DNA of 64,000 nt from Candidatus Tectimicrobiota bacterium. Its GTDB lineage: Bacteria > Tectomicrobia > Entotheonellia > Entotheonellales > Entotheonellaceae. Both the position numbers and the translations under genes were made by a program. The stretch spans positions 382,230 through 446,229 of the forward strand of contig BPKO01000002.1 of NCBI GenBank assembly GCA_026005175.1, given 5' to 3'. Below are positions 20,871 through 22,934 of this stretch, in pieces (position 1 is the first letter of the stretch; the number at the start of each line of letters is the position of its first letter). Under the pieces are notes generated by a model. It ran no database searches, was not told the DNA's origin, and was given only the letters and a program-made list of their open reading frames with translations.

Positions 20871-21572
20871 TCATCCCTCGCTGTCCTGCGGGGTCGCTGG
20901 CAGCCACCGGGCTTGCCAGCCCTCTTCGGGCTGTGCCAGGGCAAACGCCCACGGCTGGCCCCAGCGCTCCCAGAATGCCACGTGCTTGACCGGCTTGCGG
21001 CGCACCGGGCCGTGCCGGTCCCGCGGATAGCCCAGCGGCACCAGACAGTAAATCTCGTACGAGGCCGGGATGGCAAGTAACGCCGCCAGCTCCTCCGGCC
21101 GCACCAAGGGCAGGTTAAAGATCGAGGCCCCGAGGCCCAGGCCGCGCGCCGCCAGGAGCAGGTTCTGGACGGCAGGGAAGATGCTGCCTCCAGGGGTGTG
21201 GTGGCGCCCCCGCTCTCCGCATACCACGATAATCACCGGCACTTCGGCCAGGTGCTGCACCAGCCAGGCCACCGCCTTGAGCGCCAGCCGCGGCGTCCGC
21301 GGCAGCTGCTCCAGCAGCGCGGGCTCGGCCGCATAGCGCGGCTGATAGCGGGCCCAGCCTTCTGCCGCCCATGCCTGGAGCTGCCGCTTCACCGCCGCGT
21401 CGGTAACCAGGACAAAACGCCAGTCCTGGGCGTTGCGGCCAGAGGGGGCCCGAATGGCGGCGTCGAGCAGCTGGAAGAGCACCGCTTCGGGCACGGGGTC
21501 CGGCTTGAGACGGCGTAAGGCGCGGGTGGTGTAAAGGGCGGTAAAAAGGCCGATTTGTGGCGAGGGTTCCAC
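20871..21572 (-). CDS. Nitroreductase-family FMN oxidoreductase
   Basis: The 233-residue protein has nitroreductase marks: the N-terminal TTRALRRLKPDPVP, the FMN-binding SGRNAQDWRFVLV, the GGSIFPAVQNLLLAARGLGLG helix and the PLGYPRDRHGPVRRKPV C-terminal arm. Such enzymes reduce nitro groups, quinones or flavins with NAD(P)H. The start is GTG 21572, with GGGAGAGGAAG about ten bases upstream. The candidate selenoprotein gene lies just upstream on the same strand (41 bases). Physiological substrate unknown. Confidence 0.87.
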   Translation of the reverse strand: MEPSPQIGLFTALYTTRALRRLKPDPVPEAVLFQLLDAAIRAPSGRNAQDWRFVLVTDAAVKRQLQAWAAEGWARYQPRYAAEPALLEQLPRTPRLALKAVAWLVQHLAEVPVIIVVCGERGRHHTPGGSIFPAVQNLLLAARGLGLGASIFNLPLVRPEELAALLAIPASYEIYCLVPLGYPRDRHGPVRRKPVKHVAFWERWGQPWAFALAQPEEGWQARWLPATPQDSEG

Positions 21573-21612: not shown

Positions 21613-21975
21613 TCATAGGACGACGAAAAGGATGGTGAGGGCAGCCGCTAGCGCGGCACTGAATCCGACCAGATCGACGGCTTGCCGCCGCAGTTGCCGC
21701 GCGGCCGCTGCAGCGGGCCACCGCTCCACCTCTCCATCGAACCGGCGCGCGCCACGCGCCGCCAAGAGGACTCAGGTGCCAGTGCGGGCCTGGAGCAGGC
21801 CCAGCAGGCCGCTCCACAAAGGGAAAAAGAGCAGCCCGCGCCACGCTGGTGCCGCCGCGGTGATCAGAAAAACAACCCCCAGGACGGCGCTTACCGCCAG
21901 GCTCAGCACGCCCAGGAGACGACGCCGGCGCCGCTCCCCAGGCCCGATGTTGCCCATCTTGCCGGGCTGGTCCAT
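21613..21975 (-). CDS. Small membrane protein with in-frame UGA: candidate selenoprotein
   Basis: The frame from ATG 21975 gives a basic N-terminus (NIGPGERRRRRLLG), two membrane helices (about 23-44 and 46-64) and QARTGT. It then meets TGA at 21774-21772. The same frame continues, without any shift, into VLLAARGARRFDGEVERW, an amphipathic stretch and a third hydrophobic helix (VGFSAALAAALTILFVVL), ending at TGA 21613-21615: 120 residues in all. As I recall this uncharacterised family, a Cys occupies the UGA position (TCVxLAARG). Directly after the UGA, GGCGCG/CGCGCC (21755-21760 with 21744-21749) caps a 5-base loop TGGCG, with an outer CCTCT/AGAGG pair. This fits the bacterial SECIS layout. 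Read conventionally, it is a 67-residue truncated protein. Confidence 0.6.
21730..21770 (-). promoter_or_regulatory. Possible bacterial SECIS hairpin
   Basis: It begins two bases after the in-frame UGA. Outer helix CCTCT/AGAGG, inner perfect 6-base helix GGCGCG/CGCGCC, 5-base apical loop with G as second base, 18-19 bases from the UGA. These match the published bSECIS rules as I remember them, but GC-rich DNA forms hairpins easily. Confidence 0.4.
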
Positions 21976-22082
21976 CTCCAAGGGTCCTCTGGCCAGTCTG
22001 ATTCCCGGCCTGCCCTACAGCGCCTCAGAGGCAAGCGCAAGCCGGCTTCTTGCTTTGCCACCATAGCCTTGCCGACGGCCTT

Positions 22083-22886
22083 TCAGGACGCCGGGCGCTG
22101 CGCCCGCAGGGCGTGCACTTCCTGCACCAGACGCGGCAGCAGCTCCCCGGTAGGGCCGCGCAGGCTGAGGGTGCACAGGGGAGTCAGCTCGCTCTCGTAG
22201 AGATTCACTTCGATGAGCACGCCGCCTCGCTCGCGCACCGCCAGGGGAAACCAGGCAGCCGGGTACACGGTGGCCGAGGTGCCAGCCACCAGCATGCAGT
22301 CGCAGCGCTCGACTTCCTGGAAGCAGGCCTCCAGCACGTCAGCGGGGATGGGCTCCCCAAAGGCAACCGTGTCGCTCTTGAGAATGCCGCCACACTGCGG
22401 GCAGTGCGGCGGCAAGGTGTCCAGGGAGATGGTGTCGGCGGGAAAGCGAGCCGTACAGCGAATACAACGCACCAGGGTGTAGTTGCCGTGAATTTCCAGC
22501 AGGCGGCGACTGCCGGCGCGGCGGTGCAGGTTGTCGACGTTTTGGGTGATGAGCGCCCGCAACACCCCCATCTCTTCGAGGTGCACCAGCGCCACGTGGC
22601 CGGGGTTGGGCTGTGCCACGGCAATGGTGTCGCGGATTTCCTTGCTCGCGCCACTGGGCGCTAAGCGCTCCTCCCAGGCCTTTTTGGGGTCTTGCAAGAA
22701 GCGCCGGTAGCCGTCCATAGGCGGCTCGCCGTACTTGGTCCACAACCCGCCCGGGCCGCGAAAAGGCGGAATGCCGCTTTCCACCGAGATGCCGGCCCCA
22801 GTGAGGGCCACCACGTAGTCAGCGGCCGCCAAGAGCTCGGCTGCCCGGCGCAGGTCAGCCTGCGGGTTGGTCACTGCATGGCTCAT
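22083..22886 (-). CDS. Sir2-family NAD-dependent protein deacylase (CobB-like)
   Basis: The 267-residue sirtuin removes acyl groups from lysines using NAD+. It has GAGIS (residues 30-34), the GIPPFRG loop, TQNVDNLHRRAG with the catalytic His, two zinc CxxC pairs (CIRC and CPQC), and GTSATVYPAA. ATG 22886 is used, leaving out 11 basic residues of an upstream extension; a GGGGA-type site precedes it. Sirtuins often control acetyl-CoA synthetase and central metabolism. The neighbours give no specific target. Confidence 0.94.
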   Translation of the reverse strand: MSHAVTNPQADLRRAAELLAAADYVVALTGAGISVESGIPPFRGPGGLWTKYGEPPMDGYRRFLQDPKKAWEERLAPSGASKEIRDTIAVAQPNPGHVALVHLEEMGVLRALITQNVDNLHRRAGSRRLLEIHGNYTLVRCIRCTARFPADTISLDTLPPHCPQCGGILKSDTVAFGEPIPADVLEACFQEVERCDCMLVAGTSATVYPAAWFPLAVRERGGVLIEVNLYESELTPLCTLSLRGPTGELLPRLVQEVHALRAQRPAS

Positions 22887-22934
22887 TCCCCGTCCCCCAC
22901 GGCACAAGGCGCCGGCCACTGCGGGGCAGACGCC

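Follow-up and report, generated by a model that had tools for sequence, protein, structure and literature searches.

The window, the whole stretch of 64,000 nucleotides analysed here from Candidatus Tectimicrobiota bacterium, carries a short gene on the minus strand whose frame starts with ATG at 21975, meets an in-frame TGA at 21774-21772 and ends with a regular TGA stop at 21615-21613 (Table 1). The part between ATG and the in-frame TGA encodes MDQPGKMGNIGPGERRRRRLLG..., while the part past the TGA encodes, in unchanged frame, VLLAARGARRFDGEVERW... and a last hydrophobic stretch. The product comprises 120 residues with UGA at position 68. ORF calling with translation table 11 returns only a 69-residue ORF (21772-21981). 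The reading given by the first-pass annotation, an in-frame TGA followed by a continued frame up to a normal stop, is borne out by the sequence.

Table 1. Features of the selenoprotein candidate locus (positions of the window)
Feature	Positions	Strand	Basis
Putative selenoprotein gene, 120 codons and TGA stop, codon 68 = UGA (Sec)	21613..21975	-	
TGA, very probably Sec-encoding, residue 68; TGA or Cys codon in 53/53 relatives	21772..21774	-	
Core SECIS-like hairpin: GC stem of 7-8 bp, GG in apical loop, loop starts 17-18 nt past UGA	21743..21761	-	
Full predicted SECIS-like fold with lower stem	21733..21770	-	MFE structure of the window copy; conservation seen for the core
NIGP motif, residues 9-12	21940..21951	-	invariant in 52-sequence alignment
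Helix 1, residues 12-39, predicted transmembrane	21859..21942	-	model, mean pLDDT 94
Helix 2, residues 43-65, predicted transmembrane; invariant Q62; Sec68 just beyond its putative cytosolic end	21781..21849	-	model and alignment
Helix 3, residues 89-120, last part predicted transmembrane	21616..21711	-	model
Upstream neighbour, Sir2-family deacylase (PF02146); not a conserved neighbour	22083..22919	-	
Downstream neighbour, nitroreductase/BluB-like (PF00881); not a conserved neighbour	20871..21572	-	

A first search in 98 genomes identified three unambiguous relatives (E 5e-18 to 1e-11); in all three, a single in-frame TGA falls on the aligned position. The single protein as query gave no match in the genome contigs, while an alignment-based search succeeded. 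The alignment of the first relatives led to 52 loci from named genomes, of which L044 and L059 share contigs with L003 and L004; together with L005 they form the 53 relatives used for codon reading. The codon at the site is TGA in 36, TGC in 13 and TGT in 4 relatives, and no other codon occurs. The homologues do not end at the TGA position, their reading continues past the site, and Cys or UGA occupies it in all 53. The Cys context TCVxLAARG, named in the first-pass annotation, was found in the forms KTCVKLAARG and RTCVRLAARG. Gemmatimonadota, the phylum of G065 reached via the contig shared by L059, harbor the gene in 25 of 298 genomes: 21 carriers have one TGA, three are full-length without a stop and one is partial (TGA in 21 of 24 full-length copies). 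Rokubacteria/NC10 (phylum of G089, reached via L044) carry it in 28 of 95 genomes, with one in-frame TGA in each of the 28. Re-reading of the site in 39 members from Gemmatimonadota and Rokubacteria/NC10 yielded 37 TGA and 2 TGC.

The invariant columns in the alignment of 52 proteins are N9, I10, G11, P12, R18, Q62 and the Sec/Cys column. With a best identity of 45%, the window protein sits on a long branch of the family. Predicted Sec forms occur in Acidobacteriota, Gemmatimonadota, Rokubacteria/Methylomirabilota, Myxococcota, Poribacteria, Zixibacteria, Chloroflexota and others. Cys forms occur also in Actinomycetota and one haloarchaeon; the family extends to archaea, perhaps by transfer. 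The haloarchaeal Cys form, from Haloparvum sedimenti (L082:3992-4366), is located upstream of the gene for ribosomal protein S15. Pooled over ten close pairs, pN/pS is 0.29 before the TGA and 0.26 after it, and on this measure the stretch past the TGA reads as protein under constraint equal to that on the upstream part.

The genome of the window encodes the selenocysteine machinery, selA, selB, selC and selD, whose presence the first-pass annotation had proposed to check. The genes selA (E 9e-192) and selB (E 5e-117) are adjacent, and a tRNA-Sec (selC) with the anticodon TCA is located about 7 kb from them. The selD gene (G000 C9:120631-121554, L155) has one in-frame TGA of its own and is likely to encode a selenoprotein itself. 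With these four genes, one of them containing an in-frame TGA, this genome evidently uses selenocysteine outside the window gene. Across 50 genomes that carry the family, selA exceeded the cut-off in 31 of 33 TGA-form but only 7 of 17 Cys-form genomes (Fisher p = 9e-5); in L084, a Cys-form genome, a fragment of selA lies at the edge of a contig. The distribution of tRNA-Sec resembles that of selA, with a cut-off that also admits some weaker matches of 48-50 bits. Within Gemmatimonadota, selA was present in 20 of 21 TGA-form genomes, a co-occurrence that is merely consistent with the selenoprotein reading because 74% of the phylum is selA-positive anyway. A clear selA was not found in the TGA-form MAGs L063 and L071 and in the Gemmatimonadota genome G293, likely a result of draft incompleteness.

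The GC-rich hairpin noted behind the UGA is real (21761-21743): its stem has 7-8 bp, its loop is GGC or UGGCG, and G is second in the five-base loop. It satisfies the constraints of a published bSECIS model, i.e. a loop of 3-9 nt, a stem of 4-16 bp, G in the first two loop positions, a distance of 16-37 nt from UGA to loop and an MFE of at most -7.5 (PMC13188914). The window copy has an MFE of -19.9 kcal/mol for 45 nt, which is not exceptional for GC-rich sequence (z -1.07; 29 of 200 shuffles are at least as stable). The significance of the hairpin comes from family-wide sequence comparison and not from this single fold. With gap-free indexing from the UGA (U = index 0), the Sec genes have the common core pairs 17-29, 18-28, 19-27 and 20-26, and GG at 21-22 of the loop in 51 of 53. 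The comparison comprised 53 non-redundant Sec genes, 18 Cys genes and 1000 rounds of synonymous recoding. The 4-bp core is complete in 50 of 53 Sec genes (94%) versus 22% of the synonymous recodings (maximum 43%) and in 6 of 18 Cys genes (33%; Sec versus Cys, Fisher p = 5e-7). Stability above the mean of the own recodings was observed for 52 of 53 Sec genes versus 10 of 18 Cys genes, which is chance level. Double changes keep the stem, with A-U or U-A at 17-29 in L058 and L122 and U-A at 20-26 in L145. Zixibacteria (L053, L005) have GLRR in place of AARG in the protein and an unchanged stem. The window copy prefers a register shifted by two, in which 13-19 pair with 25-31 around the loop UGGCG, or GGC with an extra U-G pair. 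The two Zixibacteria genes (L053:3998-4354, L005:1498-1854) also have a Cys two residues ahead of the Sec (CTUV) and the downstream motif FLGLRRARNLD, and keep the hairpin.

Mechanical ORF calling ends at the TGA, as expected for an ordinary stop behind a 67-residue protein, the remainder being a decayed remnant or a separate gene. This is very improbable in view of the open downstream frame under the same purifying selection as the upstream part, the full-length relatives with Cys, and a site that has TGA but never TAA or TAG. The window gene is known from a single assembly, which would leave room for an error in sequencing or assembly or for a nonsense mutation of recent origin; such an error is in practice excluded because dozens of independent assemblies from several phyla share TGA at this codon, followed by a hairpin under selection. 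Read-through of UGA is known in bacteria generally, and the codon might be read by near-cognate Trp suppression or in a code with UGA as Trp or Gly, without Sec insertion. Relatives, however, have Cys at the site and never Trp, Gly or Arg, the gene itself stops at TGA, the Sec machinery is present and co-distributed, and the hairpin is specific to the TGA forms, so that this decoding, too, is hardly credible. Ordinary stop, error and other stop recoding were all rejected on the codons at the site, the selection past the TGA and the specificity of the hairpin. The mid-gene TGA is, with very high probability, a selenocysteine codon and the window gene a selenoprotein gene, as the first-pass annotation had suspected; Cys or UGA in 53 of 53 relatives, the sel genes and the family-wide hairpin support this reading. 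Signals and machinery for selenocysteine are visible in the sequence, from which we infer the decoding step: SelB with Sec-tRNA(Sec), held by the hairpin directly 3′ of the UGA, would decode codon 68 as selenocysteine. The Cys versions may serve the same purpose, especially where a lineage has no Sec machinery.

On a tree of the 52 proteins, the Sec/Cys state requires at least five changes, two of them forced by well-supported branches, versus 14 in shuffles; many branches of this tree are weak, and the one leading to the window sequence is long. In Pyrinomonadales, Sec and Cys versions are intermixed. Around the family loci, neighbouring genes are conserved locally at most, and none of them across phyla. 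At about ten loci of Pyrinomonadales (e.g. L038, L045, L049, L051), genes for a TolC-like outer-membrane efflux protein and a short lipoyl/HlyD-like protein precede the family gene, and the local neighbour in Chloroflexota is an ACP phosphodiesterase. Actinomycetota Cys forms (L067, L074, L075, L079, L080) are located directly downstream of genes for PLP enzymes of Cys/Met metabolism. No other neighbourhood observed has a link to sulfur.

The three-helix membrane architecture, already proposed from the letters, is supported by an AlphaFold2 model and by the charge pattern. Modeling on the family alignment gave a pLDDT of 94.3 and a pTM of 0.85, with a short helix (69-73) directly after the Sec; residue 68 was entered as Cys, and residue 121 of the model is the final stop read as Cys, a translation artefact. 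The mean number of K+R is 4.9 in the N-terminus, 0.7 in loop 1, 4.8 in loop 2 between helices 2 and 3, and 0.2 in the C-terminus. By the positive-inside rule, the basic residues of the N-terminus and of loop 2 would place Sec68 and NIGP towards the cytosol. Charges and model thus suggest an N-in topology; Sec68 would lie where helix 2 reaches the cytosol, on one membrane side with the invariant NIGP..RxxxR N-terminus. Sec68 is the sole Cys/Sec residue of the window protein. A Cys beside NIGP is present in 12 of 16 Cys forms and 12 of 36 Sec forms.

No Pfam or NCBIfam model matched significantly in a search with 52 members, and the PDB sequence search yielded no significant match. The fold search with the model revealed no clear match either: the best Foldseek hit had E 1.4, and the best VIA-align hit, to an Mrp subunit (Z 7.3, rmsd 4.5, 86 residues), lies within the helical-bundle background. 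The absent fold match does not demonstrate a new fold. A catalogue from 2026 comprises 119 prokaryotic selenoprotein families, none of them an entry of this description (PMC13188914). The new deep-Sep families (PMC12013277) are distinct from the membrane family, set apart by their descriptions. Targeted literature searches, with preprints and RefSeq/GenBank annotations outside their scope, did not bring up a description of the membrane selenoprotein family. Relative to the sources searched, it is probably new; GOS_A (PMC2398784) stands outside this comparison.

The protein may act as a membrane-interface selenol or thiol protein for redox or chalcogen chemistry. Its reaction partner is presumably an outside one, because most Sec forms are without a conserved second Cys and the window protein is free of Cys. 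Topology and Sec chemistry suggest such chemistry at the membrane, given a single selenol that would face the cytosol where helix 2 ends; redox and chalcogen handling are guesses of similar standing, and any particular biochemical function is tentative at best. A role as a selenol-dependent reductase of peroxide, lipid hydroperoxide or quinone in the membrane is possible, though doubtful: the Sec sits at the membrane interface and redox enzymes make up most selenoproteins of known function (PMC13188914), but a UxxC/CxxU motif, a thioredoxin fold and a conserved redox partner gene are all absent. Descent as a divergent three-helix offshoot of the YgaP-like/DUF2892 proteins (PF11127), which would imply binding, carriage or export of selenium or sulfur anions, is rather unlikely. 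Common features are the start N-x-G-x-x-(E/D)-R-x-x-R, two helices and a Cys ending helix 2. In E. coli YgaP this Cys (C159) is close to the thiocyanate-binding site (PMC4730233). PF11127 reaches members at E about 1e-3 (L100, the protein of L070), below its curated cut-off. The profile-profile comparison is weak (probability 8.6%, P-value 0.004, 18 columns of the N-terminal motif aligned), other, unrelated Pfam membrane models score similarly, and DUF2892 lacks the third helix and the LAARG motif. A widespread, previously undescribed membrane-fold Sec family with a lone Sec at the cytosolic face might conceivably perform chemistry unrepresented among known selenoproteins, e.g. the handling of selenium or sulfur anions, a tentative view.

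The family is apparently absent from selenoprotein catalogues, although many lineages of soil, sediment and marine habitats carry it; standard gene calling turns its members into truncated ORFs. Small and membrane-bound, with neither a thioredoxin fold nor a conserved CxxU/UxxC motif, the protein raises the question of the role of a lone membrane selenol. The natural Sec and Cys versions within Pyrinomonadales make an advantage of Sec over Cys testable in one group.

Among known systems, DUF2892 (PF11127) resembles the window family in the N-x-G..R..R start, the helix pair and the Cys at the end of helix 2; the window family differs by the extra third helix, the NIGP and LAARG motifs and Sec in place of Cys, with a weak profile match. 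The eukaryotic SelK and SelS are similar in their general features, being small and membrane-anchored with a lone cytosolic Sec, but have a single membrane helix, the Sec near the C-terminus and a eukaryotic SECIS in the 3′UTR. In contrast to SelD, FdhA and others, the window family is a small three-helix membrane protein without a conserved UxxC/CxxU motif and outside the 119 families (PMC13188914). With SelD and FdhA, which depend on SelB for bSECIS decoding, it shares the UGA at a Cys position, the GG in the loop, the hairpin 17-18 nt downstream and the presence of SelA, SelB and tRNA-Sec.
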